From assembly GCF_014203735.1 (NCBI RefSeq), contig NZ_JACHJQ010000008.1, positions 331,787 through 395,786 of the forward strand: a DNA stretch of 64,000 nt, read 5' to 3'. Each line of letters starts with the position of its first letter. The first letter of the stretch is position 1. This DNA comes from Actinophytocola algeriensis (GTDB lineage: Bacteria; Actinomycetota; Actinomycetes; Mycobacteriales; Pseudonocardiaceae). Of the stretch, positions 39,311-52,205 are shown one piece after another. The notes under the pieces are model-generated. The model saw only the letters and a program-made list of their open reading frames with translations. It made no database searches and was not told the origin of the DNA. A program made the translations under genes and the position numbers.

Positions 39311-40348
39311 ATGACGCGTTTGGCCGAGTCCGCGGTCCGGCACTGGGACTTCCGTCGCGGGGTCGAGGGCACCAGCGTGCTGGTGCGGTTCGGCACCGAC
39401 CACGGCGTCCCGCGCCGGACCCTGCTGGCCGGGTCCGGGCTCACCGCGGCCCAGCTGGCGGACCCGTCGCTGGAGGTCGAGGCGCGGCAGGAGCTGCGGG
39501 TGGTCCGCAACCTGGCGGCCGCGCTCCCGGACGCGGGGGTGGCGGCGGGCCGCGAGTACCACGCGACGACGTTCGGGATCCTGGGCTTCGCGTTCCTGTC
39601 CAGCCCGACCATGGGGGCCGCGGTCGCGGTCGCCCTGCGCTACTACGACCTCAGCTTCGCGTTCAGCATCCCGGACGTGACCGTGGCCGACGGGCAGGTG
39701 CGCCTGGTGCTCGACGACCGGCTCCTCCCGGCCGACGTGGCCCGCTTCCTCGTCGAACGCGACCTGGCCGCGATCCACACGGTGATCGACGAACTGCTGC
39801 CGGCCGGGGTCCCGCTGACCGGCCTCGAGTTCCGCTTCGCCGAGCCCGAGGTGTCCGACCAGTACGAGGCCACCTTCGGCCTCCGGCCGCGGTTCGGCTG
39901 CCCGGCGAACGTGGCGACCTTCGACGCGTCGTACCTCACCGAGCCACTGCCACTGGCGAACGCCCACACGGTGGCGATGTGCGAGGCGCAGTGCCGGGAC
40001 ATCGTGGCCCGCCGCAGGGCCCGCTCCGGGACGGCGCACGAGGTCCGTGAGCTGCTGACCAGGCTGGGCGCCCTCGGTTCGCCGATGCCCGAGGTCGCGC
40101 GGGAGCTGAACCTGAGCACCCGCACGCTCCGGCGCCGCCTGGAGGAGGAGGGCACCAGCTTCCGGGCCCTGCTCGACGAGGTGCGGGAGGCACTCGCGGA
40201 GGAACTCCTCACGAAGGGCGCGGTTCCGGTCGAGGACGTGGCGGTCCGCCTCGGCTACGCGGAGGCGTCGAGCTTCATCCACGCGTTCAAGCGCTGGAAG
40301 GGCGTCACCCCGATCGCGTACGTACGGCAGCGGCCGGGTGCCCGATAG
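39311..40348 (+). CDS. AraC-family regulator (arabinose-binding-domain type, VirS-like)
   Basis: A 345-residue regulator. The N-terminal half matches the AraC 'Arabinose_bd' sensor type (GILGFAFLSSPTMGAAVAVALRYYDL). The C-terminal DNA-binding domain has two helix-turn-helix units: MPEVARELNLSTRTLRRRLEEEG and VEDVAVRLGYAEASSFIHAFKRWKGVTP. Size and divergent position next to a Baeyer-Villiger-type monooxygenase mirror virS-mymA in Mycobacterium tuberculosis, where VirS activates the mymA operon, so activation of the leftward operon is inferred. Confidence 0.9.
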   Translation: MTRLAESAVRHWDFRRGVEGTSVLVRFGTDHGVPRRTLLAGSGLTAAQLADPSLEVEARQELRVVRNLAAALPDAGVAAGREYHATTFGILGFAFLSSPTMGAAVAVALRYYDLSFAFSIPDVTVADGQVRLVLDDRLLPADVARFLVERDLAAIHTVIDELLPAGVPLTGLEFRFAEPEVSDQYEATFGLRPRFGCPANVATFDASYLTEPLPLANAHTVAMCEAQCRDIVARRRARSGTAHEVRELLTRLGALGSPMPEVARELNLSTRTLRRRLEEEGTSFRALLDEVREALAEELLTKGAVPVEDVAVRLGYAEASSFIHAFKRWKGVTPIAYVRQRPGAR

Positions 40349-40439
40349 CGAAGCTGCGGGGAAGTTGCCGGTCCACTGTGGCCATCCGTGGGTGAGGATT
40401 GTGGTGTCACGTCACGATAATTCCTGGGGGGCTCCCACG

Positions 40440-42659
40440 ATGCGACGCATCGGAAGTTCCGCGCTGGCCTTCGGGCTGGCGTTGTCCGTGCTCACGGTCG
40501 CGCCCGCGGCAGCGGCGCCGAGACCGGCGGAGAGACAGGCAGCCGCCGCGGCGAGCGGGTTCACCCCCGTGTCGCCGAAGCGGGTGCTCGACACGCGGAT
40601 CGGGGGTGGGCCGGTCGGTCCGGCGGGCACCGTCACCATCGACCTGTCGGCGGCCGTGCCCGCGTCGGTCACCGCGGTGGCCCTGAACGTCACCGGCACC
40701 GGGCCGACGACCGCCACGTTCGTCACCGCCTACCCGGCCGGGACCGCACGGCCCACCGCGTCGAACCTCAACCTGGTGACCGGGGAGACCCGGGCCAACC
40801 TGGCGACGGTCGCGGTCGGCGCGGACCGGAAAGTGGTGCTGTACAACAACACCGGCTCGGTCCACCTGCTCGCCGACCTCACCGGGTACTACGCCGCCGA
40901 CGCACCGGGCCGGTTCTCGGCGGCGAGCCCGAACCGGGTGATGGACACCAGGACCCAGGTCGAGTTCCGGCCGCCGGGGCCGTTCGGGCCGGACACGGTG
41001 GAGACGCTCGACCTGTCGGGCAAGGTGCCGGCGTCGGCGACCGCCGTGACGTTCACGCTCACCGGGACCGCGGCCACGACGAGCACGTTCGTCACGGCCT
41101 GGCCTTCTGGCACCCCGCGGCCCACGGCGTCGAACCTCAACCTGGCGGCCGGGGCCACCACGCCGAACCAGGTCGTGGTCGCGCTCGGCGCGGACCGGAA
41201 GGTCGACCTGTACAACAAGAACGGCGACACGCACCTGATCATCGACCTCGCCGGGTTCTACACGCCGGACTACGGCGCGCTGTTCACGCCGGTGCCGCCC
41301 AAGCGCGTGCTCGACACCCGCCGCAGCGGGCCGGTCGGCGCGGGGGGTTCGCTGGACGTCGGTATCGGGCCGCTGCCCGCGCTCACCACCGGTGTGGTGC
41401 TGAACCTGACCGGCACCCAGCCCACCGCGGGCACGTACCTCACGGCGTGGCCGCCGCCGGAGCCGCGACCGACCGCGTCCAACCTGAACCTGACCCGTGG
41501 GCAGACGGCCGCGAGCCTGGTCACGGTGGGCATGGGCGACAAGTCGGTGCGGCTGTTCAACAACGCGGGCACCGTCCACCTGATCGCCGACATGGCGGGC
41601 TACTTCTCCCTGCCGCCGTTCTCCTGCACCGACGGCTGCGTGTACGCGTGGGGCGACAACGGGTGGGGCGTGCTCGGCACCGGCTCCCCCAACGCGACCG
41701 CCGCCGTGCCCGCCCTGGTGTACGGGCTCTCCGACGTGGTCGCCGTGTCGGACGGGACCGCGCTGAAGGCGGACGGCACCGTGTGGGCGTGGGGCCACAA
41801 CTACGCCGGCCAGCTCGGCAACGGCTGGTCCGGGTACGGCGCCAAGTCCGTGTTCCCGGTGCCCGTGCTCGGGCTGGCCGACGTGGTCGCGATCGACGGC
41901 ACCCTGGCGCTGAAGAGCGACGGCACGGTGTGGGCGTGGGGTGACACGCCCGGCGGCGGGTACGACGTGCCCGCCCAGGTGCCGGGACTGACCGGGGTCA
42001 CGGCGGTCGCGAGTGCGCCGGGCTCCGGGTACGCGCTGAAGGGCGACGGCACCCTGTGGACGGTCGGCACCGAGCCGGCCCAGGTGCCGGGGCTGACCGA
42101 CGTCCGGCAGGTCGAGGTCGGCCTCTACAACGTCTACGCGCTCACCGGCGACGGCACGATGTGGGCCTGGGGCGACAACCGGCAGGGCCAGACGGGCAAC
42201 GGCACGGTCGGCGGTGTGGACTGCATCGACCTCCCGGACGCCGAGAACTGCTGGTTCGACGAACCGGCGCCGGTGACCGGCCTGAGCGACGTCACGTCGA
42301 TCGGCGCCGACTCCGGCCACGGGTTCGCCGTGACGGCCGACGGCAGGGCGTGGGCATGGGGCAGCAACTACCGCGGCGGCCTCGGCAGAGGACTCGACTG
42401 CAACGCCTGTGCCTCCGGTACCCCGATGCCGGTCGCGCTGACGAACGCGCGGACGATCACCGGCTTCCAGGACGGTGGCTACGCAGTGGACGCGGACGGC
42501 CAGGTCTGGGCCTGGGGCAACAACGAGAAGCACGCCCTCGGCCAGACCGGCGGCACGCAGCCCGGTGAGTACTCGACCGTTCCGGTGCGGTTGGCCGCAC
42601 CGACGGGCGTCACCGCGGTGGCGGGCGGGTTCAACTCCGGTTTCGCACTGGTTCCGTAG
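40440..42659 (+). CDS. Secreted VLDTR-repeat / RCC1-propeller protein
   Basis: A 739-residue exported protein. Signal peptide: MRRIGSSALAFGLALSVLTV with AxA cleavage near residue 26. Residues about 41-393 hold three copies of a 115-residue beta-rich domain, each opening like FTPVSPKRVLDTRIGGG and containing ARPTASNLNLVTG and VHLLADLTGYY. Residues about 396-739 form RCC1/BNR-like repeats with VYAWGDNGWGVLG, VWAWGHNYAGQLGNG, MWAWGDNRQGQTGNG, AWAWGSNYRGGLGRG and VWAWGNNEKHALGQ, predicting a seven-bladed propeller. VLDTR domains occur in actinobacterial cell-wall-associated proteins. The role is probably in surface binding. ATG 40440 is preceded by a GGGGGG tract. Confidence 0.9.
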   Translation: MRRIGSSALAFGLALSVLTVAPAAAAPRPAERQAAAAASGFTPVSPKRVLDTRIGGGPVGPAGTVTIDLSAAVPASVTAVALNVTGTGPTTATFVTAYPAGTARPTASNLNLVTGETRANLATVAVGADRKVVLYNNTGSVHLLADLTGYYAADAPGRFSAASPNRVMDTRTQVEFRPPGPFGPDTVETLDLSGKVPASATAVTFTLTGTAATTSTFVTAWPSGTPRPTASNLNLAAGATTPNQVVVALGADRKVDLYNKNGDTHLIIDLAGFYTPDYGALFTPVPPKRVLDTRRSGPVGAGGSLDVGIGPLPALTTGVVLNLTGTQPTAGTYLTAWPPPEPRPTASNLNLTRGQTAASLVTVGMGDKSVRLFNNAGTVHLIADMAGYFSLPPFSCTDGCVYAWGDNGWGVLGTGSPNATAAVPALVYGLSDVVAVSDGTALKADGTVWAWGHNYAGQLGNGWSGYGAKSVFPVPVLGLADVVAIDGTLALKSDGTVWAWGDTPGGGYDVPAQVPGLTGVTAVASAPGSGYALKGDGTLWTVGTEPAQVPGLTDVRQVEVGLYNVYALTGDGTMWAWGDNRQGQTGNGTVGGVDCIDLPDAENCWFDEPAPVTGLSDVTSIGADSGHGFAVTADGRAWAWGSNYRGGLGRGLDCNACASGTPMPVALTNARTITGFQDGGYAVDADGQVWAWGNNEKHALGQTGGTQPGEYSTVPVRLAAPTGVTAVAGGFNSGFALVP

Positions 42660-42666
42660 TCCACGG

Positions 42667-42704
42667 CACGGTCACCCGCGAGTAGCGTCTCGCGGGTGAC
42701 CGTG
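42667..42704. terminator. 16-bp perfect stem hairpin over the LuxR start
   Basis: CACGGTCACCCGCGAG (42667-42682) pairs exactly with CTCGCGGGTGACCGTG (42689-42704) around the loop TAGCGT. It starts 8 bp after the RCC1 gene stop, so it is a good terminator. The right arm also contains the first GTG codons of the LuxR gene (42696, 42702), so it could hide that start in read-through transcripts. Confidence 0.8.
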
Positions 42705-44867
42705 GTCGTGGGTGTGGACGGCGCGGGGCGAACCCATCGCCTGCGCCGGATCCTGGCCGCCACACCGTCGAGCCGGTGGTTCACCGGCGTCGACGACCTG
42801 GCCGCCGCCGACGGCCTGGTGGTGGTCGACGACGCCCACCGCCTCGACCCGGCCGCACTGCGTGCGCTGACCGTGGCCGCACGCGCGGGGACGAAGCTGG
42901 CGATCGCCCGGCGCCCCACGATCACGAGCCGCGCACTGGCCGAACTGGACGAACTGGCCGCGGCGGACGGCGTCGAGGTACTGGCCCCGCTCGACCGGGA
43001 CGGCGTGGCCGCGCTGCTGGCTGAGGTCACGGGACGCCCGGTGTCGCCGGACGTGGCCGTCCGGGCACACGAGGCGTCGGCGGGGATGCCGGTGGTGGTG
43101 GCGCTGTCGCGGGACCGGGGCGCACTGGTCGCCAGGATGCAGCGGTGCCTGGCGGTACTGCCCGAGGAGGCCGCGGCGGTGGCCCGGCTACTGGCACTGC
43201 GCCTCGACCTGCCCGACGACGTCCTCGGTGGCGCCGCGACCATGCGCACCCTCAAGGAAGCGGGCCTGCTCGAACCGGGTGGCGAGCGGATGATCCCGGC
43301 GCTCGCGGACGTGGTGCTGGATGAGCTGTCGCCGCCGGAACGGCGCTCCCTGCACGACACCGCCGCCCGCGCCATGCTCGCCACCGGCGCCGACCCGGTC
43401 GCGACCGCCACCCAGCTGCGCGCGGCCCGCATCCGGACCCCGGCCGCGGCGCAGGTATACCTGCGGGCGGGCGAACAGACCCGCTTCACCGACCCGACCG
43501 CCGCACTGTCGTGGTTCGACGACGCCACCGACGCGGGCGCCGACCCCACCGCGGTGGCCCCGGGCAGAGCCGAGGCCGCCACACTGCTCGGCCTGACCAC
43601 CGACGTCGAACCGGGTGCGGGACGGCTCGCGCTGGTCGCCGGTGCGGCCGCGGCCCACGACGGCCGCACGGCCCGCGCCGCGGACGCACTCCTCACCGCT
43701 CCCCCGCCTGGCCTGCTCCTGGCCGTCCCGTTGCTGGCGGCGACGGGGAGGCTGGGCGAAGCCCGCGACCACCGGCCCGGGGACGGCACCGGTCCGCTGG
43801 CCAGGTTCGCGGCCGCCGCCGTCGTGGCCGCCGAGGACCCGGAGGCGGCGGTGCCGCTTCTCATCGAGGCGGCCGAGGACGTCGAGCGGGCCACCCCCAC
43901 CGCCGTCCTGCCCGACACGCCGCACGCCATCGGGGCGGTCGTCGCCGTCGCCGTCGGGGACCTCGCCACCGCCGAACACCTCCTCACCCGCGCGCTCACC
44001 GCCGGGATCGGTGGCCCGGCAGGCGCGGAGCGGCACCGGCTACTCCTCGCCTGGGCACGCATGCGGGCGGGCCGCTACGACACCGCGCTCGCCGAGCTGC
44101 GCCGGGACATCGAGCTACCCGGCCGCGAACGGCTCCTCCGCGCCGCCATCAGCGCGGGCATCGCCCGCAGGCGGGGTGACATCGCCGGGCTGCACGCCGT
44201 CTGGGACGCCGTCGAACCCGTGCTCGCGCGCCGGGCCGTCGACCTCTGGCAGCTCGAAGCCGTCGAGGAGCTGCTCGTCGCCGCCGCCCGGCTGCGGCAC
44301 CGGCGCCGCGTCGAACCGGTCCTCGCCGCGCTCGACGGGATCGTCCCGCCCGCGTGGCGCCCCGCGCTCGGCTGGCTGCGCGTGCAGGTCGCGGTCGCCG
44401 ACAACGACCCGGACACCGTTGCCGCGCAACAGCTCCCCGGCACGCTCGGGGAGGCGGCGGCATTGTGGGCGACCGTCCTGCGCGGGGAGACGGCCGACCC
44501 GGACACCGTCCACGACCTCACCGAACGCCTCGCGGACCGGCAGCTGCCGTGGGAGGCGTCGCGGCTCGCGGGTCAGGCCGCCATCACCACCACCGACCCG
44601 GCCGCCGCGCGCAGGCTCCTCGAACGCGCGCGGGAACTGTCCGATCCCGACAAGGCGGCGAGCCCGGACACGGCCGGCCTGTCCGAACGGGAGCTCGAGG
44701 TCGCCCGGATGGTCCTCGCGGGCAGCACGCACCGGGAGATCGGCGCACAGCTCTACATCTCGCCCAAGACCGTCGAGCACCACGTCGCCCGCATCCGCGG
44801 CAAGCTCGGCGCGACCTCACGGGCGGAACTGCTGGCCATGCTCCGGGAGATCGTGCCCGTGCGGTGA
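42696..44867 (+). CDS. Large LuxR-type regulator (LAL/MalT-like, IniR-like)
   Basis: A 723-residue regulator. The N terminus retains a reduced ATPase: VVVGVDGAGRTHRLRRILAA in place of Walker A (no GKT/S) and GLVVVDDAHRL as Walker B. A helical, TPR-like middle (about 200-640) follows, and a C-terminal LuxR domain: LSERELEVARMVLAGSTHREIGAQLYISPKTVEHHVARIRGKLGATSRAELL. It sits directly before iniB, as Rv0339c/IniR lies near iniBAC in M. tuberculosis, so activation of iniB is the likely job. The start is one of several in-frame GTGs (42696, 42702, 42708, 42714), the first two inside a hairpin stem. Confidence 0.87.
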   Translation: MTVVVGVDGAGRTHRLRRILAATPSSRWFTGVDDLAAADGLVVVDDAHRLDPAALRALTVAARAGTKLAIARRPTITSRALAELDELAAADGVEVLAPLDRDGVAALLAEVTGRPVSPDVAVRAHEASAGMPVVVALSRDRGALVARMQRCLAVLPEEAAAVARLLALRLDLPDDVLGGAATMRTLKEAGLLEPGGERMIPALADVVLDELSPPERRSLHDTAARAMLATGADPVATATQLRAARIRTPAAAQVYLRAGEQTRFTDPTAALSWFDDATDAGADPTAVAPGRAEAATLLGLTTDVEPGAGRLALVAGAAAAHDGRTARAADALLTAPPPGLLLAVPLLAATGRLGEARDHRPGDGTGPLARFAAAAVVAAEDPEAAVPLLIEAAEDVERATPTAVLPDTPHAIGAVVAVAVGDLATAEHLLTRALTAGIGGPAGAERHRLLLAWARMRAGRYDTALAELRRDIELPGRERLLRAAISAGIARRRGDIAGLHAVWDAVEPVLARRAVDLWQLEAVEELLVAAARLRHRRRVEPVLAALDGIVPPAWRPALGWLRVQVAVADNDPDTVAAQQLPGTLGEAAALWATVLRGETADPDTVHDLTERLADRQLPWEASRLAGQAAITTTDPAAARRLLERARELSDPDKAASPDTAGLSERELEVARMVLAGSTHREIGAQLYISPKTVEHHVARIRGKLGATSRAELLAMLREIVPVR

Positions 44868-44955: not shown

Positions 44956-44990
44956 CGGGGGTCTCCCCGATGTCCGCACGGGGTCTCCCG
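44956..44990. promoter_or_regulatory. Direct repeats GGGGGTCTCCCCGA / CGGGGTCTCCCG upstream of iniB
   Basis: CGGGGGTCTCCCCG (44956-44969) and CGGGGTCTCCCG (44979-44990) are 22 bp apart, two helical turns, and end 59 bp before the iniB start. Each is itself dyad-symmetric. The 14-mer GGGGGTCTCCCCGA reappears with one change upstream of the second IniB-type gene (52192-52205). Upstream CCCCTAGCGG/CCCCCAGCGG tracts may add to the site. Candidate target of the adjacent LuxR regulator. Confidence 0.68.
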
Positions 44991-45049: not shown

Positions 45050-45997
45050 ATGACCGTCAACGTGACCGACTCCCTCAAGGACTTCATCCGCAACATCATG
45101 TCCGACCGGCAGTTCGCCGGGAACTACGCGGAGGACCCGCAGGGGATGCTCGCCGCGCAGGGCGTGACCGACCACGATCTGTCCGCGGTGGACGTGCAGG
45201 CCGCCGTCCGCGAGGTGTGCGCCGACCCGTCGGTGCCCGCCGAGGCCCGCACCGCCGTGCAGAACAGCGGCCCGCCACCGTCGTCCGGTGGCGCCTCGCA
45301 CTCGGTGGACAGCGTGGTCCAGCACCTGAACCACATCACCTACGCCACCTACGAGGGCGACGACTACATCACCAACCTCATCGACCAGTCCGTCGACAAC
45401 AGCGTGGACATCAGCGGTCCCGTGTTCGGCGACGTCAACGCGGTCACCGGCGAGCAGGGCCAGATCATCGACGGCCCGAACTTCGGCCAGGCCAACACCG
45501 GCGACGGCGCCGTCCAGGCAGGCGACGACGCGTCCGGCGTGAACACCGGGGTCAACACCGGCATCAACGCGGGTGGCGACGTCGAGAACGCGGTCGTCGG
45601 CGACGGCAACCAGTCCGCGCAGGTCAGCGGCGACGCCGACGGCACGGTGTTCAACTTCGGCGGCGGCGACGTCAACAACCTCGGCAACGCCGACATCGAC
45701 GACTCGTCCCTGTCCTTCGGCGACGGCGATGCCACCACCATCTCCGACGTCACCGTCGACGACGGGTCGGCGATCGCGGTCGGCGGCAACGCCAGCGGCT
45801 CGAACGTCGAGGACAACGACACCACGGTCGTGACCACGGTCGAGGACAACGACACCACGAGCAACGACACCACGATCAACGACAACGACGTCTCGCTGCA
45901 GGACAACGACACGACCGTCACCGCGGTGCAGGACAACGACGTCGTGCAGGACAACGACACCGCTGTCGCGGGCGACGACCAGCTGGCCGTCCAGTAA
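45050..45997 (+). CDS. iniB: IniB-like acidic repeat protein
   Basis: A 315-residue protein with an IniB-type N-terminal domain (residues 1-65: SLKDFIRNIMSDRQFAGNYAEDPQGMLAAQGV), then a long, very acidic, Asn/Asp/Gly/Thr-rich region: GPNFGQANTGDGAVQAGDDA, VNTGVNTGINAGGDVENAVVG, and near the end repeats of DNDT/VEDNDTT/VQDNDVV. Mycobacterial IniB is glycine-rich and its role is unclear; the complex is induced by cell-wall stress. No signal peptide is seen. CAGGAGGT precedes the ATG. The first gene of iniB-iniA-iniC-Hsp70, behind a repeat-containing promoter. Confidence 0.88.
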   Translation: MTVNVTDSLKDFIRNIMSDRQFAGNYAEDPQGMLAAQGVTDHDLSAVDVQAAVREVCADPSVPAEARTAVQNSGPPPSSGGASHSVDSVVQHLNHITYATYEGDDYITNLIDQSVDNSVDISGPVFGDVNAVTGEQGQIIDGPNFGQANTGDGAVQAGDDASGVNTGVNTGINAGGDVENAVVGDGNQSAQVSGDADGTVFNFGGGDVNNLGNADIDDSSLSFGDGDATTISDVTVDDGSAIAVGGNASGSNVEDNDTTVVTTVEDNDTTSNDTTINDNDVSLQDNDTTVTAVQDNDVVQDNDTAVAGDDQLAVQ

Positions 45998-46073
45998 CAC
46001 CGGAAGACAGCAGGCCGGTTCGGGTCCACGGGCCCGCGCCGGCCGCTGCCCTGCCCTCCTCTCGGGAGTCACG

Positions 46074-47897
46074 ATGACCAAGGCAGCAGCGTCCACCGCA
46101 CCGGCCGTGCCCACCGGGGGCCCGGCGGCCCGCGCGGGCGACCTCGTGGACCTCGGGCTGCGCGCCTGCGAGGCGTTCGGCAGACCGGACCTCGCCGGGC
46201 GGCTCGCCGGGATGAAGGCCCGGCTGGCCGACCCGGTGTCGCACATCGTCGTCGCCGGAGAGTTCAAGCAGGGCAAGAGTTCCCTCGTCAACGCGCTCGT
46301 CGGGGCGCCGGTGTGCCCGGTCGACGACGACGCGGCGACCGCGGTGCCGACGTACGTGCGGCACGGCGACGAGGCGAGCGCCGAGCTGGTCTGGCAGGGC
46401 GACGAGCAGCGGCGTGAAGCCATCGCGCTGGCCGACGTGCGGCAGCACGTGGTCGAGAACGGGACCGAGGGCGAACGGGTCGCCGGCGTGGAGGTCCGCA
46501 TCCCGCGCGCGATCCTCGCGGGCGGGATGGTCCTCGTCGACACCCCCGGTGTCGGCGGTCTCGGGTCTGCGCACGCCGCCGCGAGCCTCGCCGCGATCTC
46601 GCTGGCCGACGCCGTCCTGTTCGTCACGAGCGCCGCGCAGGAGCTGACCCGCAGCGAGATCGACTTCCTCCGCCGCGCCCGCGCCCTGTGCCCGACGGTC
46701 GCGTGTGTGCTCACCAAGACCGACTTCTACCCGGCGTGGCGGCGCATCCGCGAGCTGGACGAGGCACACCTGGCCGCCGAGCCGGGGCCCGCGGTCCCGC
46801 TGCTCGCGGTGTCCTCGTCGCTGCGTGCCCGCGCGGTGAAGAACAGCGACGCGGGGCTGAACGCCGAGTCCGGGTACCCCGGGCTGATCGAGTTCGTGCG
46901 CGACCTCGTCGGCGGCTCCGCGGAGCAGCGGCTCGCGAACGAGGCCGCCGCCGAGGTGGTGTCGCTGTGCGACCAGCTCGGGGCGTCGTTCGCCGCCGAG
47001 CGGGAGGCGCTCGCCGACCCGGTCTCGGCGCAACGGGTGGTCGACGAGCTGACCGCGGTGAAGTCCCGCGTCGAGCAGCTCAAGACCGCGGCCGCGAGGT
47101 GGAACCAGACGCTGACCGACGGCATCGCCGACCTCACCTCGGACATCGACCACGATCTGCGGTCCCGCATCCGCGCGGTCACCGCGGAGGCCGACGAGGC
47201 GCTCGAGAAGAGCGACCCGGCGGACACGTGGCAGGAGATGGGTTCCTGGCTGCAGGCCAAGACCGCGGCGGAACTGCTCACGAACTACGAGCTGCTGCGC
47301 GACCGCGCGACCGACCTGTCCGAGCGGGTCGGCGAGCACTTCCGCGCGGCGTCCGGGGTGCTGCTGCGCACGCCCACCGTGCACGACCCGACACCGCTCG
47401 CCGCCGGCGAGGTCGACCAGGACCTCGACCTGAAGAAGATGCGCGTGGTCAAGCAGGCGATGGTCGCCATCAAGGGCGCGTACGGCAGCGCGGTCATGTT
47501 CTCCCTTCTGGGCAGCATGGTCGGCATCGTCCTCGGTCCGATCGGCGTCGGGATCGGCCTCGTGCTCGGGCATCGTGGCCTGCGCGAGGAGAAGAAGCGA
47601 CAGGTCCAGAAGAGACGGACGGAGGCCCGCAACGCCGTGCGCCGGTACTGCGACAAGGTCACGTTCGTCGCCGCCAAGGACTCCCGCGACACGCTGCGCC
47701 GCGTGCAACGCGAGCTGCGCGACCACTACACGTCCCTGGCCGAGGAGCTGAACAAGTCCAACGCGGCCGCGCTCACCGCCGCGACCGAGGCCGCGAACCG
47801 GTCGCAGACCGACCGCGTCAAGCGCCTCAAGGACGTCGACGCCGAACTGGAGCGGCTCCGCAAGCTCCGCGCGCGTGCCGAGGCGGTCGCACGATGA
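46074..47897 (+). CDS. iniA: IniA-like bacterial dynamin GTPase
   Basis: A 607-residue dynamin-like protein. GTPase motifs: G1 GEFKQGKSSLVNALVG at about residue 62, G3 VDTPGVGGLGS near 155, G4 LTKTDFYP near 214. A long helical stalk follows, and a hydrophobic hairpin at about 468-500 (GSAVMFSLLGSMVGIVLGPI, then GVGIGLVLGH) that should insert in the membrane, then a basic coiled coil. M. tuberculosis IniA has this layout and performs membrane fission. ATG 46074 has GGGAG upstream. It is coupled (ATGA) to iniC, whose product may form a hetero-assembly with it. Confidence 0.93.
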   Translation: MTKAAASTAPAVPTGGPAARAGDLVDLGLRACEAFGRPDLAGRLAGMKARLADPVSHIVVAGEFKQGKSSLVNALVGAPVCPVDDDAATAVPTYVRHGDEASAELVWQGDEQRREAIALADVRQHVVENGTEGERVAGVEVRIPRAILAGGMVLVDTPGVGGLGSAHAAASLAAISLADAVLFVTSAAQELTRSEIDFLRRARALCPTVACVLTKTDFYPAWRRIRELDEAHLAAEPGPAVPLLAVSSSLRARAVKNSDAGLNAESGYPGLIEFVRDLVGGSAEQRLANEAAAEVVSLCDQLGASFAAEREALADPVSAQRVVDELTAVKSRVEQLKTAAARWNQTLTDGIADLTSDIDHDLRSRIRAVTAEADEALEKSDPADTWQEMGSWLQAKTAAELLTNYELLRDRATDLSERVGEHFRAASGVLLRTPTVHDPTPLAAGEVDQDLDLKKMRVVKQAMVAIKGAYGSAVMFSLLGSMVGIVLGPIGVGIGLVLGHRGLREEKKRQVQKRRTEARNAVRRYCDKVTFVAAKDSRDTLRRVQRELRDHYTSLAEELNKSNAAALTAATEAANRSQTDRVKRLKDVDAELERLRKLRARAEAVAR

Positions 47898-49384
47898 GCG
47901 GCGCGACGGAGCGAATCATGACACCGCGACTCACCGACCGCACCAGGACCGTGCTGGCACACGGCATCGAGGTCTACCGCGGCACGCCGCACGCGGCCCG
48001 GCTCGCCGCCGCGCGGGACCGGCTCGACGACCCGCTGCGCGTCGCGGTCGCGGGCCGGGTCAAGGCGGGCAAGTCCACGCTGCTCAACGCCCTCGTCGGG
48101 GAGCGGCTCGCGCCGACCGACGCGGGCGAGTGCACGCGGATCGTCACCTGGTACCGGGACGGGCACACCTACCAGGTGCGTGCCCAGGTCGGCCGGGAGC
48201 AGCGGCAGCTGCGGTTCGCGCGGGAGCACGACCGGCTCGACATCGACCTCGGCGGGCTGAATGCAGACGACGTCAGCGAGCTGGTGGTGACCTGGCCCGC
48301 GCAGGCGTTGCGCGCGGTGACGCTCGTCGACACCCCGGGCATCGGCTCGCTGACGACTTCGGCGGCGCGGCGGACGTGGGACCTGCTGGTGCCAGACGAG
48401 GAGGAGACCCCGGCCGACGCCGTCGTCTACCTGATGCGCCACCTGCACGCGGGGGACGTCGAGTTCCTGCGTGCCTTCCACGACGCCGAGGTGTCCCGGC
48501 CGAGCCCGGTCAACGCCATCGGCGTGTTGTCGCGGGCCGACGAGATCGCCGTCGGCCGGCTCGACTCGATGGCGTCGGCCCGCCGCGTCGCCACCCGGCT
48601 CGGCGCCGACCCGAACGTCCGGCGGCTCGTGCAGTCGGTGGTGCCGGTGGCCGGGCTGCTCGCGGAGACGGCGGTCACGCTGACCGAGGAGGAGGTCGCG
48701 CGGCTGCGCCGGATCGCGGACCTGCCGGTGAAGGAGGCCGAGGAGCTGCTGCTGTCGGCCGACCGGTTCACCTCGTCGAAACCGGAGCTGGGCCTGACCG
48801 AGCTGGAACGGTCGGCACTGCTCACGCGGTTCGGCGTGTTCGGGGTGCGGCTCGCGAGCACCATGCTGCGCCGCGGCGTGGCGGGCACGGCGAGCGAGCT
48901 GGCGACGGAGCTGGCCGACCGCAGCGGGCTTGGCAGGCTGCAGGAGTTGTTGCGGTCGCTGTTCTTCGAGCGGCGCGACGTGCTGAAGTGCCGGTCCGCG
49001 CTGCTCGCGGTCGCCGAGCTCACCCACGCGTGGCCGCGACCGGGGTCGGAGCGGCTCGCCGCGGAGGTCGAGGAGGTCGTGGCGTCGGCGCACCCGTTCA
49101 ACGAACTGCGCGTGCTGTCCGGGCTGCGGGCCGGCTGGGTGTCCGGCAAGGACGAGGTGCTCGACGAGCTGGAGCGCGTCATCGGCGGCTCCGGCGGTGC
49201 CACCCACCAGCGGCTGCGGCTACCTGCCGACGCCGGTGGCCCGGAACTGAACGCGGCCGCCGTGACCGCGCTCGAGCGGTGGCAGCGCCGCGCGGAAAGT
49301 CCCATGACCAGCTACGAGATGGCGGTCGCCGCCCGGGTGGCGGTCCGTTCGTGCGAGGGCATGCTCGCCGACCTGTCCCGATAG
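47894..49384 (+). CDS. iniC: IniC-like dynamin GTPase
   Basis: A 496-residue GTPase paralogous to IniA. G1 is AGRVKAGKSTLLNALVG at about residue 52, switch GECTRIVTWYRDG, G3 VDTPGIGSLTTSA near 145, and a G4-like VLSRADEI. A helical C-terminal stalk follows; the membrane hairpin seen in IniA is absent. ATG 47894 overlaps the iniA stop, but the next 24 bases (ATGAGCGGCGCGACGGAGCG ...) match the junction repeat, and ATG 47918 would give MTPRLTDRTRTVL, so the first eight residues may derive from a repeat insertion. Probably acts with IniA at the inner membrane. Confidence 0.9.
   Translation: MSGATERIMTPRLTDRTRTVLAHGIEVYRGTPHAARLAAARDRLDDPLRVAVAGRVKAGKSTLLNALVGERLAPTDAGECTRIVTWYRDGHTYQVRAQVGREQRQLRFAREHDRLDIDLGGLNADDVSELVVTWPAQALRAVTLVDTPGIGSLTTSAARRTWDLLVPDEEETPADAVVYLMRHLHAGDVEFLRAFHDAEVSRPSPVNAIGVLSRADEIAVGRLDSMASARRVATRLGADPNVRRLVQSVVPVAGLLAETAVTLTEEEVARLRRIADLPVKEAEELLLSADRFTSSKPELGLTELERSALLTRFGVFGVRLASTMLRRGVAGTASELATELADRSGLGRLQELLRSLFFERRDVLKCRSALLAVAELTHAWPRPGSERLAAEVEEVVASAHPFNELRVLSGLRAGWVSGKDEVLDELERVIGGSGGATHQRLRLPADAGGPELNAAAVTALERWQRRAESPMTSYEMAVAARVAVRSCEGMLADLSR
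47895..47920 (+). repeat. Junction repeat at the iniA-iniC boundary
   Basis: TGAGCGGCGCGACGGAGCGA followed by ATCATG overlaps the iniA stop and the first iniC codons. It is a diverged copy of the TGAGCGGAGCTTGCGGAGCG ... AATCAT element. Confidence 0.55.
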
Positions 49385-49394
49385 GAGCTTTGCG

Positions 49395-51527
49395 ATGTAC
49401 GCGTTGGGCATCGACCTCGGCACGACCTACACGGCCGCCGCGGTGTGGCGGGACGGCCGCGCCGAGATCGTCTCGCTCGGTGACCGGACCGCCGCCATCC
49501 CGTCGGTGGTCCTGCTCCGGGAGGACGAGACCTTCCTGACCGGTGAGGCGGCGAACCGTCGCGGGCTCACCGAACCGAACCGGGTGGCGCGGGAGTTCAA
49601 GCGCCGCATCGGTGACACCACACCGATCATGCTCGGCGGCACGCCGCACTCGGCGGAGTCGCTGACGTCGCGGCTGCTGCGCGCGGTCGTCGAGGAGGTC
49701 GTGAAACGCGAAGGCGGCCCGCCGGCGCAGGTGTGCGTGTCGCATCCCGCGAACTGGGGTCCGTACAAGACCGACCTGCTGGGGCAGGCGGTCCGGATGG
49801 CGGACCTGCCTTCGGTGCGGTTCATCACCGAACCCGAGGCCGCGGCGACGCACTACGCGCAGGAGCAGCGGCTCGGCGTCGGCACGGTGGTGGCGGTGTA
49901 CGACCTGGGCGGTGGCACGTTCGACGCGGCCGTACTCCGCCGTACCGCGGGCGGTTTCGCGATCCTCGGCAAGCCGGAGGGCATCGAGCGCCTCGGCGGC
50001 ATCGACTTCGACGCGGCGGTGTTCAACCACGTCCGCACCGCGCTGGGCGGCAAGCTCGACGACCTGGACGAGGACGACCCGGCCGCGATCACCGCGGTGG
50101 CCCGGCTGCGCGAGGAGTGCGTGCAGGCGAAGGAGGCGCTGTCGGCCGACACCGACACGACGATCCCGGTGCTGCTGCCGTCCGTGACCACCGATGTCCG
50201 GTTGACCCGCGGCGAGTTCGAGGCGATGGTGCGGCCCGCGCTGCACGGGTCGATCGAGGCGCTGCGGCGCGCGGTGCGGTCGGCGGGGAGCACACCGGAG
50301 CAGCTGCATTCGGTACTGCTGGTCGGTGGGTCGTCGCGGATGCCGATCGTGGGGCAGCTGGTGTCGGCGGAGCTGGGCAGGCCGGTCGCGGTGGACACGC
50401 ATCCGAAGCACGCCGTGGCGCTGGGTGCGGCGTGGCGTGCGGGTGCCGCCTTGGGACGTCCGGCCGGGAGTCCGGCGGTGCCGCGCGGGCCGGTGGGCGT
50501 GCCACCCGTGCCCGGCACACCTCCCCGAGGCGTGCCGATGGCGGCGCCGGTCGCGGCGCCGCTGCCGGGCGCGGCCAGGACCGAACCGCTGCGCCAGCCC
50601 CGCGGCACCGAACCGGCGGCCCCTGGCCGCGGTCCCGAACCGACCTCCAGCCGTGTTCCGGAGACGACCCCCCACCGCGGTCCGGAAACGGTGACGCGCC
50701 AACGCGTCCCCGACCTGGCGTCCGGCCCGGCGACCCGCACCCGTCCGCCGGTCGCCGAGCCGATCGGCCCGCCGCCCGCCGAGAAGTCCGACCGCCGCAA
50801 GCGGCTCCTGGCGCTGGGGGTCGCGGGCGCGGTGGTGGCGTTGCTGGCAGGCGGCGGCGTGGCGTTCGCGGTGTTCGGCGGTGACGACGACCCCGCGGGC
50901 ACCGGTGCGGGCACCCCGGCCACCACGTCCACGACGGTGTCCGAGGCGTCCCTGCTCCCACCCGACGAACAGTGCACCGACGCGATCATGGCCAACCCGC
51001 ACTGGGTGTGCCTGACCTCGGCGGTGGTCGCGGACGGCACGATCACCATCCAGTACGTCAGCGACGGCGGGGCACTGACCGTCAACGGCGGCAGGCACCT
51101 CCACATCTACGGCGGCGACGGCACGAACCCGTCCGACCAGGTCATGGGCCACCAGGTCCCGGAGTCCGAGCAGGGCAAGTGGTACGTGGAAGACCGCCGC
51201 CCCGCGGTGCTCGACGTGACCGACCAGCGGTTCGCGCTGGCGATCGGCGACGCCCCGAAGGTGTGCGCCCGCATCGCGACCGCCGACCACGTCCTGGTCA
51301 CCGCCCAGGACGGCACCTACCGGACCGGCAACTGCATCCCGATCACCCGCGGCGCCGACACCGCACCGGAACCCGCGCCGAAGACGACGAAGAAGAACCG
51401 TCAGCCGCGCACCGACACCCCGACCACGACGACGGAGACGACCACCACCACGACCGACACCACGACAACGGACCCGACTCCGGACAGCGAACCGGAAACC
51501 CCGTCAGCGGAGCACGCGGACGGCTGA
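49395..51527 (+). CDS. Membrane-spanning Hsp70-like protein
   Basis: A 710-residue protein. Residues 1-360 are an Hsp70/actin-fold ATPase: phosphate 1 GIDLGTTYTAAAV, phosphate 2 VYDLGGGTFDAAV at about 168, adenosine motif LLVGGSSRMPIVGQL near 308. The peptide-binding domain of DnaK is missing. A Pro/Arg-rich linker (360-465) leads to one membrane helix LLALGVAGAVVALLAGGGVA (about 470-495), then an outside domain with four cysteines (EQCTD, HWVCLTS, KVCARI, GNCIPI) and a Thr-rich tail. It thus links a cytoplasmic ATPase to an extracellular domain. AGGAG precedes the ATG, 10 bp after iniC, so it belongs to the ini operon. A receptor-like or envelope-scaffold role is inferred. Confidence 0.9.
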   Translation: MYALGIDLGTTYTAAAVWRDGRAEIVSLGDRTAAIPSVVLLREDETFLTGEAANRRGLTEPNRVAREFKRRIGDTTPIMLGGTPHSAESLTSRLLRAVVEEVVKREGGPPAQVCVSHPANWGPYKTDLLGQAVRMADLPSVRFITEPEAAATHYAQEQRLGVGTVVAVYDLGGGTFDAAVLRRTAGGFAILGKPEGIERLGGIDFDAAVFNHVRTALGGKLDDLDEDDPAAITAVARLREECVQAKEALSADTDTTIPVLLPSVTTDVRLTRGEFEAMVRPALHGSIEALRRAVRSAGSTPEQLHSVLLVGGSSRMPIVGQLVSAELGRPVAVDTHPKHAVALGAAWRAGAALGRPAGSPAVPRGPVGVPPVPGTPPRGVPMAAPVAAPLPGAARTEPLRQPRGTEPAAPGRGPEPTSSRVPETTPHRGPETVTRQRVPDLASGPATRTRPPVAEPIGPPPAEKSDRRKRLLALGVAGAVVALLAGGGVAFAVFGGDDDPAGTGAGTPATTSTTVSEASLLPPDEQCTDAIMANPHWVCLTSAVVADGTITIQYVSDGGALTVNGGRHLHIYGGDGTNPSDQVMGHQVPESEQGKWYVEDRRPAVLDVTDQRFALAIGDAPKVCARIATADHVLVTAQDGTYRTGNCIPITRGADTAPEPAPKTTKKNRQPRTDTPTTTTETTTTTTDTTTTDPTPDSEPETPSAEHADG

Positions 51528-51540
51528 GATCCGGTGCCGG

Positions 51541-51575
51541 ATGGCTGGGCAGGTGCGGAGCGCCTGCCCAGCCAT
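51541..51575. terminator. Bidirectional terminator hairpin
   Basis: Perfect 13-bp arms ATGGCTGGGCAGG and CCTGCCCAGCCAT surround a 9-nt loop. It lies between the convergent ends of the Hsp70-like gene (51527) and the second IniB-type gene (51617) and should stop transcription from both. Confidence 0.85.
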
Positions 51576-51616
51576 TGCCGTGGAATTCGTTCGACGGGGC
51601 TCCGGGACGGTGTGGC

Positions 51617-52156
51617 TCAGTCGAGGGGGTCCTCGTCCGCGCTGTCGTCCTCGTCCGGGGTGAGGCCCTCGATCGGGGGTTCCGGGGTGAACGTGGCGGG
51701 TGACCACTCCGGCTCGGGCGCTTCCACCCGGTCCGGCGCGGTGTCCTCGACCGTCTCCGCCGGCTGCGTCGACGGCTCCGTGACGCCACCGGCGCCCGCG
51801 CCGAAGTCCAGTTCGTCCGGGTCTGCCCAGTCGGCGGGCTCCTGTGGTTCCTCGGCGGGCTCGTCGAGGTCCGCTGCCGGTGGCGCCGCCGAGGTCAGCA
51901 GGTCGAACCAGTTCGCGGGTTCCGCCGACTCGACGGGGACCGGGCCGTGGGCCGCCACGTAGGGGGCCAGCGCCTCCGCCACCGCCACCGGCGCGGTGTC
52001 CGCGTACGACACCACGGCCTCGCTCACCAGCGGTTCCGGGAGGTCGGCGTGCCCATGCTCGGCCAGGTACCCGGCCGGGTCCGCGCCGTAGGCCGCGCGC
52101 GCCCCGGCGTCGCCGGCCAGGTCGGCCAGCAGTTCGCGCAGGGGGCGGGCATCCAT
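51617..52156 (-). CDS. Second IniB-type acidic protein
   Basis: A 179-residue protein whose first 65 residues resemble the IniB N-terminal domain: LRELLADLAGDAGARAAYGADPAGYLAEHGH compares with IniB LKDFIRNIMSDRQFAGNYAEDPQGMLAAQGV (aromatic, DPxGxLAxxG core). The rest is acidic and Pro/Glu-rich (PPAADLDEPAEEPQEPAD) and has no fold that I recognise. ATG 52156 has TTGAGGAC upstream. Its promoter contains GGGGGTTTCCCCGA, one base off the iniB promoter motif. Convergent to the ini/Hsp70 operon, it is probably a co-regulated partner. Confidence 0.78.
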   Translation of the reverse strand: MDARPLRELLADLAGDAGARAAYGADPAGYLAEHGHADLPEPLVSEAVVSYADTAPVAVAEALAPYVAAHGPVPVESAEPANWFDLLTSAAPPAADLDEPAEEPQEPADWADPDELDFGAGAGGVTEPSTQPAETVEDTAPDRVEAPEPEWSPATFTPEPPIEGLTPDEDDSADEDPLD

Positions 52157-52191
52157 GTCCTCAACTGTAGAGAACGGTCCGCGGCCCGGCG

Positions 52192-52205
52192 TCGGGGAAA
52201 CCCCC
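52192..52205 (-). promoter_or_regulatory. Ini-type operator GGGGGTTTCCCCGA
   Basis: On the minus strand this 14-mer differs from the iniB motif GGGGGTCTCCCCGA by one base and lies 36 bp before the start of the second IniB-type gene. A palindrome GACCCCGGGGTC (52211-52222) lies just upstream, overlapping the AraC gene's stop. Confidence 0.68.

Follow-up and report, generated by a model that had tools for sequence, protein, structure and literature searches.

The Ini system responds to anti-mycobacterial cell-wall drugs. As described by Boot et al. (2017; PMC5760070), the mycobacterial locus comprises the regulator gene iniR, a small gene with an IniB N-terminal-like domain (iniB*), iniB, iniA and iniC, with iniBAC and iniR arranged divergently, and iniBAC is induced in both M. 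marinum and M. tuberculosis. In the parts of that paper dealing with the regulator, ATPase, MalT-like and DNA-binding domains are named for IniR, a membrane part not being among them, and the authors conclude that passage of trehalose through the cytoplasmic membrane is probably unnecessary and that the periplasm houses the sensing system. One sentence there mentions, as a difference between species, that M. smegmatis has a dnaK-like gene beside iniR, in wording which implies that M. marinum and M. tuberculosis lack it at that place. In a full-text search of openly accessible journal articles, this sentence was the only mention found of a dnaK-like gene by an Ini locus. M. smegmatis IniA is a membrane-fission dynamin (PDB 6j72; Wang et al. 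2019, PMC6715688), and no Hsp70 partner is described in that study, where the word hsp70 has 0 occurrences.

The Ini locus of Actinophytocola algeriensis

The window analyzed here, a 64,000-nucleotide stretch of A. algeriensis contig NZ_JACHJQ010000008.1 (positions 331,787 to 395,786), carries counterparts of the components described for mycobacteria (PMC5760070, locus description): an IniR-like regulator gene, an iniB*-like small gene, an iniB-like gene, iniA, iniC and, comparable to the dnaK-like gene of M. smegmatis, an Hsp70-like gene. Its genes run collinearly (R, B, A, C, Hsp70-like) rather than divergently. An earlier sequence-only reading had proposed iniB, iniA and iniC homologues closely followed by an Hsp70-like gene, with a second IniB-like gene converging on them, and all were located (Table 1). 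The IniR-like regulator upstream of iniB had been overlooked in that reading; its best NCBIfam match was IniR (NF038181, 175.5 bits; curated cut-off, 750), and a profile search gave GerE at 58.3 bits. The iniB-like product directly before iniA scored 30.3 bits against IniB_NTERM (NF038175), under the curated 40, and 57 bits against a profile of the family made from sequences of related loci. IniA matched 6j72 with 359.5 bits over residues 24 to 598 of 607 and has intact GTPase residues, and the iniC ATG overlaps the iniA stop codon. The second IniB-like product scored 18.1 bits with NCBIfam (cut-off, 40) and 38 and 32 bits with the profiles from related loci. It had been singled out as special, but a similar small gene, iniB*, is already published (PMC5760070, locus description), and as a new component it was rejected, two IniB-type copies being present in 49 of the 51 full-flank loci from named records (among the best 80 of 531 relatives).

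Table 1. Features of the Ini locus, in window positions
Feature	Position	Strand	Remarks
iniR-like regulator	42696..44867	+	LuxR-type HTH at C terminus; GTG start as listed
Operator-like site	44957..44972	+	GGGGGTCTCCCCGATG; 77 bp before iniB
Second occurrence of core	44980-44989		GGGGTCTCCC; start to start 22 bp from first core
iniB-like gene	45050..45997	+	IniB N-terminal domain (residues 8-53), then Asp/Asn/Gly/Thr-rich remainder
iniA, dynamin-like GTPase	46074..47897	+	match to M. smegmatis IniA structure 6j72
iniC, second dynamin-like GTPase	47894..49384	+	directly after iniA; Dynamin_N 48.3 bits
Hsp70-like membrane protein	49395..51527	+	start 10 bp past iniC stop
Predicted TM helix of Hsp70-like protein	50820..50876	+	about residues 476-494; hydropathy scan
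Four-cysteine outer domain of Hsp70-like protein	50958..51344	+	residues 522-650
Second IniB-like gene (iniB*-like)	51617..52156	-	converges on operon
Second operator-like copy	52190..52205	-	GGGGGTTTCCCCGACG; 33 bp before second iniB

The Hsp70-like protein consists of a nucleotide-binding domain (NBD; residues 1 to 355), a proline-rich linker, a predicted transmembrane (TM) helix preceded by a basic stretch, an outer domain and a Thr-rich tail. Pfam HSP70 (PF00012) matched with 188.8 bits in two stretches, the best joining residues 84 to 352 to profile positions 107 to 375 of 599, and DnaK 2v7y matched with 144.7 bits. As the match stops at position 375, the claimed lack of a peptide-binding domain holds, no part of that domain being found in the window protein by the Pfam HSP70 profile search; in all loci scanned, such a piece occurred in only eight ORFs, all full DnaK-like proteins. 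The window protein thus departs from Hsp70/DnaK, having a TM helix and outer tail in place of this domain. The hydropathy scan likewise bore out a single hydrophobic helix with four cysteines beyond it. The four-cysteine outer domain gave no Pfam match, and its single-sequence AF2 model was uninformative (mean pLDDT, 37.3). Although present in the window as claimed, it was found elsewhere only in two close relatives (L032 and L033) and in one genome outside the order (L254), and it was therefore rejected as a general sensor.

A common operator-like site precedes the two window iniB-type genes. The 9.73-Mb genome contains two perfect copies of the 14-mer GGGGGTYTCCCCGA, one before each of these genes, and with one mismatch allowed it has 11 further places, compared with 1 for the reversed control. 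When one mismatch was allowed, the shorter pattern GGGGTYTCCCC occurred 7 times in the window against 5.0 expected, which is chance level; only the longer operator-like site stands out from chance. Both iniB-type genes of the window and both of L032 have the core GGGGTYTCCC close by, as does L031, and L030 has a looser version; the core was not found near the iniB-type genes of L033, L029, L036 or L040, nor before any of 258 IniB-type genes of other families, which have a shorter box. The box, its consensus derived from the same loci on which it was scored, was present in only 4/11 f15, 2/6 f16, 0/1 f3 and 1/3 out-of-order loci having IniR. IniR would be the protein that binds the putative operator-like site.

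Linkage of the Hsp70-like gene to iniA

Loci were drawn from nonrandom sets: all IniA loci with an E value below about 1e-57 together with the window (S1, n = 94), the best 80 of 531 relatives whose genomes are named (S2), 35 of the 81 IniA-bearing genomes in the genus of G031, mostly picked for few contigs (S3), and, from 246 genomes, every locus lying outside the order (S4, n = 5). The best 20 of the weaker IniA matches served as controls; in one of these, L202, the Hsp70-like protein is a WD40 fusion with a doubtful TM call.

The sequence-only reading hinged on conserved linkage in related genomes. In the neighborhood survey, 161 of 166 distinct loci had an Hsp70-like gene no more than 6 kb from iniA, after 38 of the 214 S1 to S4 loci had been excluded for short flanks; the corresponding counts were 164 for iniC, 155 for iniR-type genes and 154 for iniB. 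Among the 38 excluded loci, 27 still show an Hsp70-like gene, and L124 shows only a DnaK-like ORF. DnaK-like ORFs were kept in the linkage count, but each full-flank locus having one also has an Hsp70-like ORF. Because 161 of 166 distinct loci keep this linkage, there is good support for a functional tie between the Hsp70-like protein and the dynamins. The Hsp70 profile gave 14 matches in the window genome, including two pairs that are each fragments of a single ORF, and the chance of such a match in a random 14-kb stretch is estimated at about 2%; yet all three iniA loci of this genome have an Hsp70-like gene, which exceeds chance.

The linkage was found across families, in named mycobacterial records and at 5/5 loci outside the order, and the idea that it is peculiar to the window's group was rejected. 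The combination had been thought to go beyond the mycobacterial system, but all 51 full-flank named-record loci (among the best 80 of 531 relatives) have the Hsp70-like gene. These loci are nearly all Mycobacterium or Mycolicibacterium, two are titled only Actinomycetota or actinobacterium, and M. smegmatis is absent from them. What PMC5760070 treats as a species difference is here a near-constant member of the locus.

The IniA and Hsp70 families have co-diversified: trees of the quick type, built from 49 chosen rows with long branches flagged, largely agreed, and the three paralogous loci of the window genome are separated in both. Among the discrepancies is L041, grouped with catalytically intact loci by the Hsp70 tree and placed next to degenerate ones by the IniA tree. 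Mere neighborhood, in which the Hsp70-like gene is carried along with no shared function, would accommodate the variable gene order (divergent, collinear or convergent), but the linkage has survived reordering of the genes and is kept at three paralogous loci of a single genome, the trees largely match and selection is purifying; we consider this explanation highly improbable. It is also quite unlikely that the protein serves as an escort or anchor of the low-complexity IniB proteins, with their conserved N-terminal domain as the point of contact. This domain is found in 154 of the 166 distinct loci, often encoded divergently from the Hsp70-like gene, but 9 of the 161 Hsp70-bearing distinct loci have no IniB in view, including 4 of the 5 outside the order.

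Catalytic residues, selection and membrane topology

Six residues (D8, T11, K70, E171, D194 and T199) were checked by alignment to the genome's own DnaK, their roles and numbering being those of E. coli DnaK. The window NBD has DTKEDT at these positions, that is, all intact, as do 18 other Ini loci. The set was not intact in 190 of 214 NBDs, a count that omits DnaK-like proteins and Hsp70 matches of fewer than 300 aligned residues and in which any change at the six residues qualifies (L039 is changed only at T11, to Ser). Those 190 include every one of the 125 NBDs from the two Mycobacterium sets, unlike the window NBD, and the window's genome holds two catalytically intact Hsp70-like copies and one degenerate copy. 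As judged from these alignments, this catalytic state, intact in the window and 18 other Ini loci and altered in most NBDs, is new here, and the mycobacterial and most of the sampled same-order NBDs are likely pseudo-ATPases. The mycobacterial genes are under purifying selection (dN/dS of 0.07 to 0.27 in 12 pairs), by which decay of these copies was rejected, and one predicted model of a mycobacterial NBD has the Hsp70 fold.

Catalytically intact loci branch first in the IniA tree, and in the Hsp70 tree they form one clade together with L037 and L039. Since the latter tree unites them, the direction from intact to degenerate rests on the IniA tree.

A function as a disassembly chaperone of dynamin polymers could be envisaged from the action of Hsc70 in clathrin uncoating, and the six catalytic residues of the window NBD and its steady linkage to a dynamin pair are in keeping with this. 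However, the window protein has no peptide-binding domain, the ORFs that do have such a piece being full DnaK-like proteins, and linkage persists where the catalytic set is not intact, which makes this role unlikely.

A TM helix with an outer tail was predicted in 17/17 complete catalytically intact proteins from Ini loci and in 132/133 complete proteins of family f8, which includes mycobacteria. Such a helix was predicted in 0/11 f15 proteins and was not predicted in 20/32 degenerate f1 proteins, and membrane anchoring is therefore not universal.

Proposed role and related systems

We give about an even chance to the view that the Hsp70-like protein belongs to the IniR regulon and serves IniA and IniC as an adaptor or switch at the membrane. 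It would then be part of the core of the Ini response to envelope stress and not a general chaperone, would be expressed together with iniB, iniA and iniC under IniR, and would span the cell membrane, the NBD facing the cytoplasm and the tail lying outside. By contact of the NBD with the dynamins, it may place or license IniA and IniC at damaged envelope, and could so couple an outside signal to them, the damage presumably being what is sensed. In loci with intact sites, the window included, the NBD might run an ATP cycle as a driven switch; the mycobacterial form, like that of most of the sampled order, would be a likely pseudo-ATPase acting through binding alone. The earlier proposal of an Hsp70-like transmembrane ATPase as dynamin partner retains its conserved linkage and its predicted helix and tail, and loses the suggestion that the combination goes beyond mycobacteria. 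Points against the adaptor are the versions with no predicted helix, the imperfect agreement of the two trees, the derivation of the box consensus from the scored loci and its low frequency in some families, and the induction of iniBAC in species that seem to lack the gene beside iniR.

The Hsp70-like gene shares the strand of iniR in 139 of 174 loci having both nearby, mostly side by side on maps (adjacency was not counted), which also fits a role with IniR and weighs against the adaptor. MalK holds MalT in E. coli, and in like fashion the Hsp70-like protein may be a membrane sensor or anti-activator for IniR, its outer tail seeing envelope damage, its NBD changing and IniR being freed or activated, with the dynamins as output only. 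The helix and tail of nearly all complete f8 proteins would suit such a sensor, as would the periplasmic sensing and the IniR domains without a membrane part given in the relevant passages of PMC5760070. Against it, the linkage to dynamins occurs with no iniR in view in 7 of 161 distinct Hsp70-bearing loci (in L242, iniR sits just beyond), the Hsp70-like gene is also found at 5/18 non-Ini dynamin pairs without iniR, it is the last gene of the dynamin operon in the window clade, and some versions have no predicted TM helix. Moreover, the gene would be dispensable for induction in M. marinum and M. tuberculosis, because iniBAC is induced there although the gene is seemingly absent beside iniR (PMC5760070, as far as its wording goes). 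This possibility seems doubtful to us.

With the adaptor or switch as the preferred role, a broader and tentative proposal, to which we would give somewhat less than an even chance, is that actinobacterial dynamin pairs are run by dedicated Hsp70-NBD membrane receptors. An ancestral ATP switch coupling envelope state to the dynamins, kept in the window, would have become a dead pseudo-Hsp70 scaffold, probably more than once and in all Mycobacterium copies sampled, and would have been overlooked because two Ini model species seem to have lost the gene beside iniR. M. tuberculosis and M. marinum presumably have no dnaK-like gene at that position. A near-constant membrane-spanning partner is a concrete candidate for the missing part between envelope damage and the regulator or dynamins. 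The loci also offer a natural series, from apparently active Hsp70 ATPase to pseudo-Hsp70 within one conserved neighborhood, with intact and degenerate copies together even in the single window genome, in which one can ask what the Hsp70 fold does without hydrolysis.

Ssz1, an atypical Hsp70 of the ribosome-associated complex, likewise keeps the Hsp70 fold for binding and is not known to hydrolyze ATP; it is soluble and ribosomal, with Zuo1 as partner, unlike the Hsp70-like membrane protein. GAP1-N2 GTPase conflict systems (Kaur et al. 2020, PMC7159879) also encode GTPases beside an Hsp70, which in a subset has no peptide-binding domain, but their GTPases are others and GrpE and DnaJ parts are present, whereas the window GTPases are dynamin-like; the main text of that paper contains neither the word dynamin nor IniB. 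Finally, although the membrane protein there is a cyclase and not an Hsp70, E. coli DgcE with RdcA/RdcB (PMC6510439) is alike in that a dynamin-like protein with a partner docks on the membrane domain of a signaling protein.

The Ini locus and linkage of the Hsp70-like gene

On the + strand of the window, genes for an IniR-like regulator, an IniB-like protein, the dynamin pair IniA and IniC, and an Hsp70-like protein follow one another in this order. Coordinates and profile matches bore out the sequence-only reading, which had described iniB, iniA and iniC homologues closely followed by an Hsp70-like ATPase gene, with a second IniB-like gene converging on the operon. In the Hsp70-like protein, a nucleotide-binding domain (NBD) is followed by a proline-rich linker, one predicted transmembrane (TM) helix, and an outer part that carries four cysteines and ends in a Thr-rich stretch; profile matches and sequence agreed with the same reading that it lacks a peptide-binding domain. 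An RCC1-repeat protein (RCC1, 108.9 bits) is encoded at 40338-42659, directly ahead of the iniR-like gene. The N terminus of the second IniB-like protein weakly matched TIGR04509, an NHLP-type RiPP leader family (16.6 bits; cut-off, 34), which points to a possible resemblance between the N-terminal domain of IniB and leaders of this type.

Genes of the Ini locus in the window (G000:C8:331787-395786)
Feature	Position	Strand	Remark
IniR-like regulator	42696-44867	+	
IniB-like gene	45050-45997	+	
IniA	46074-47897	+	
IniC	47894-49384	+	Start overlaps IniA stop
Hsp70-like protein gene	49395-51527	+	ATG 10 bp past IniC stop
Second IniB-like gene	52156-51617	-	

IniA searches matched 33 of 41 genomes from the same and related genera (E value of 1e-10 or better), 66 of 200 from the order (1e-35), 81 of 118 from Mycobacterium in the wide sense (1e-60), and 10 of 246 from the phylum (1e-60). 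About a third of the sampled Mycobacterium genomes (37/118) lacked an IniA match at 1e-60, and loss or strong divergence of the module may thus be frequent there; in two Mycobacterium-type genomes iniA was in two pieces (L117 and L260). Profiles derived from the window proteins were used to scan stretches around chosen IniA genes (sets S1 to S4). Both sides of iniA were covered for 6 kb in 176 of the 214 Ini loci, and 166 of these remained distinct at an IniA identity of 99%. These 166 held iniC (164), the Hsp70-like gene (161), iniR (155), and an IniB-type gene (154) no more than 6 kb from iniA, confirming in relatives the linkage on which the sequence-only reading depended. Among the five exceptions, L061 and L105 are lone IniA-like genes, L116 lacks the Hsp70-like gene yet has iniR and iniB, and L076 and L232 carry it just out of range (6.4 and 6.7 kb from iniA, respectively). 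Extra flanking sequence revealed the order iniB* (the published small IniB-type gene), Hsp70-like gene, iniR beside L232, L242, and L243. In the named set (best 80 of 531 relatives), all 51 full-flank loci had the Hsp70-like gene, and the 29 short-flank loci had the gene (20), only a DnaK-like ORF (L124), or neither (8). By family, it lies near iniA in f1, f3, f8 (which holds the mycobacteria), f10, f11, f15, and f16; in f4 its distance is 6.4 kb.

As controls, the 20 strongest of the weaker IniA matches, most of them from the same genomes, were handled identically. All 18 with full flanks had a partner dynamin, five had an Hsp70 NBD, and none had iniR or iniB. The pairing of an Hsp70 NBD with two dynamins thus extends beyond the Ini clade, although it is far from constant there. 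The five control Hsp70 proteins (L202, L204, L206, L210, and L218) occupy a separate position in the tree, as another subfamily; all are catalytically intact, and their tails vary from a WD40 propeller (L202) to TM helices.

Descent and membrane tails of the Hsp70-like proteins

IniA and Hsp70 trees were built for 49 loci (44 Ini and five control). In both, the window groups with L031, L032, and L033, the second locus of its genome (L029) with L036, L037, L039, and L040, and the third (L030) with L046 and L057. IniA and Hsp70 distances correlated at 0.54, exceeding all 2000 permutations (largest, 0.21). Despite partial differences between the trees (e.g., L041, L060, L062, and L065), the two genes have for the most part been duplicated and inherited together. 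Gene order shifted during this descent: the Hsp70-like gene is divergent in most loci, follows iniC collinearly in the window clade as well as in L251 and L254 from outside the order, and is convergent or doubled in some mycobacteria. The window's genome has 14 Hsp70 profile matches, with several NBD-type ORFs closely paired (e.g., C1:1101710 and 1104031; C2:957669 and 959918).

Judged by six catalytic residues, the Ini Hsp70-like proteins split, unexpectedly, into apparently active and dead ATPases. Among complete proteins, a predicted TM helix with an outer tail was found in all 17 intact proteins from Ini loci, 132 of 133 from f8, 4 of 4 degenerate proteins of f16, 12 of 32 degenerate proteins of f1, and none of 11 from f15. 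A P.RPPV-type motif was present in 11/11 of f15 and 23/32 degenerate proteins of f1. The tails inspected were mostly Thr/Pro-rich. The four-cysteine domain of the window recurs in L032, L033, and L254, preceded in the last (L254:12226-14613) by a BON domain (28.3 bits; cut-off, 27). Where Hsp70 is degenerate in f1 and f15, the dynamins drift too: in such f1 loci, 16/32 IniA and 15/32 IniC retain the G3 glycine (DTPG), and in f15 Ala replaces it in 12/12 IniC.

A putative IniR site

The 9.73-Mb genome has two perfect matches to GGGGGTYTCCCCGA, one ahead of iniB and the other ahead of the second iniB; one mismatch added 11 places (reversed control, 1). Two copies of the 16-bp form with at most one mismatch were reached in 0 of 100 shuffles of the window. 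The core recurs at both iniB genes of L032 and at iniB of L031, and is absent at L033. A shorter box, TCCCC[GT]A[AT][CTG], lies ahead of iniB or iniB* at loci with IniR in view in 105/106 cases in f8, 40/48 in f1, 4/11 in f15, 2/6 in f16, 0/1 in f3, and 1/3 outside the order, counts that are not independent of its discovery since it was derived from the same loci. Background was about 5% of random stretches and 0/20 controls. With no IniR in view, it was found in 0/4 loci of f1, 0/1 each of f4, f10, f11, and f16, 0/2 outside the order, 1/1 of f15, and 14/28 of f8, where contig ends truncate many of the loci. It also lies within 320 bp ahead of the Hsp70-like gene in 38/48 f1 and 51/106 f8 loci with IniR. 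Chromatin immunoprecipitation data located IniR directly ahead of iniBAC in M. tuberculosis (PMC5760070). The shorter box may represent the IniR site.

Proposed role and comparison with known systems

The main alternative for the Hsp70-like protein is a sensor for IniR: its gene shares the iniR strand in 139/174 loci, and sensing is periplasmic according to the published view (Boot et al. 2017, PMC5760070). In the loci outside the order, the dynamins and the Hsp70-like gene stay together and iniR and iniB drop out. These three are the firmest trio of the module, and the Hsp70-like protein was therefore assigned to the dynamins rather than the regulator. Most likely it is a membrane adaptor whose NBD would bind or gate IniA/IniC: in the window's class as an ATP-driven switch, in mycobacteria through binding only.

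A dnaK-like gene beside iniR in M. smegmatis was mentioned by Boot et al. (2017, PMC5760070), and a full-text literature search returned no further report of this gene. Hsp70 proteins without a peptide-binding domain have also been described in other GTPase systems (Kaur et al. 2020, PMC7159879). Thus, the Hsp70-like gene is a new, general component of the known Ini system.
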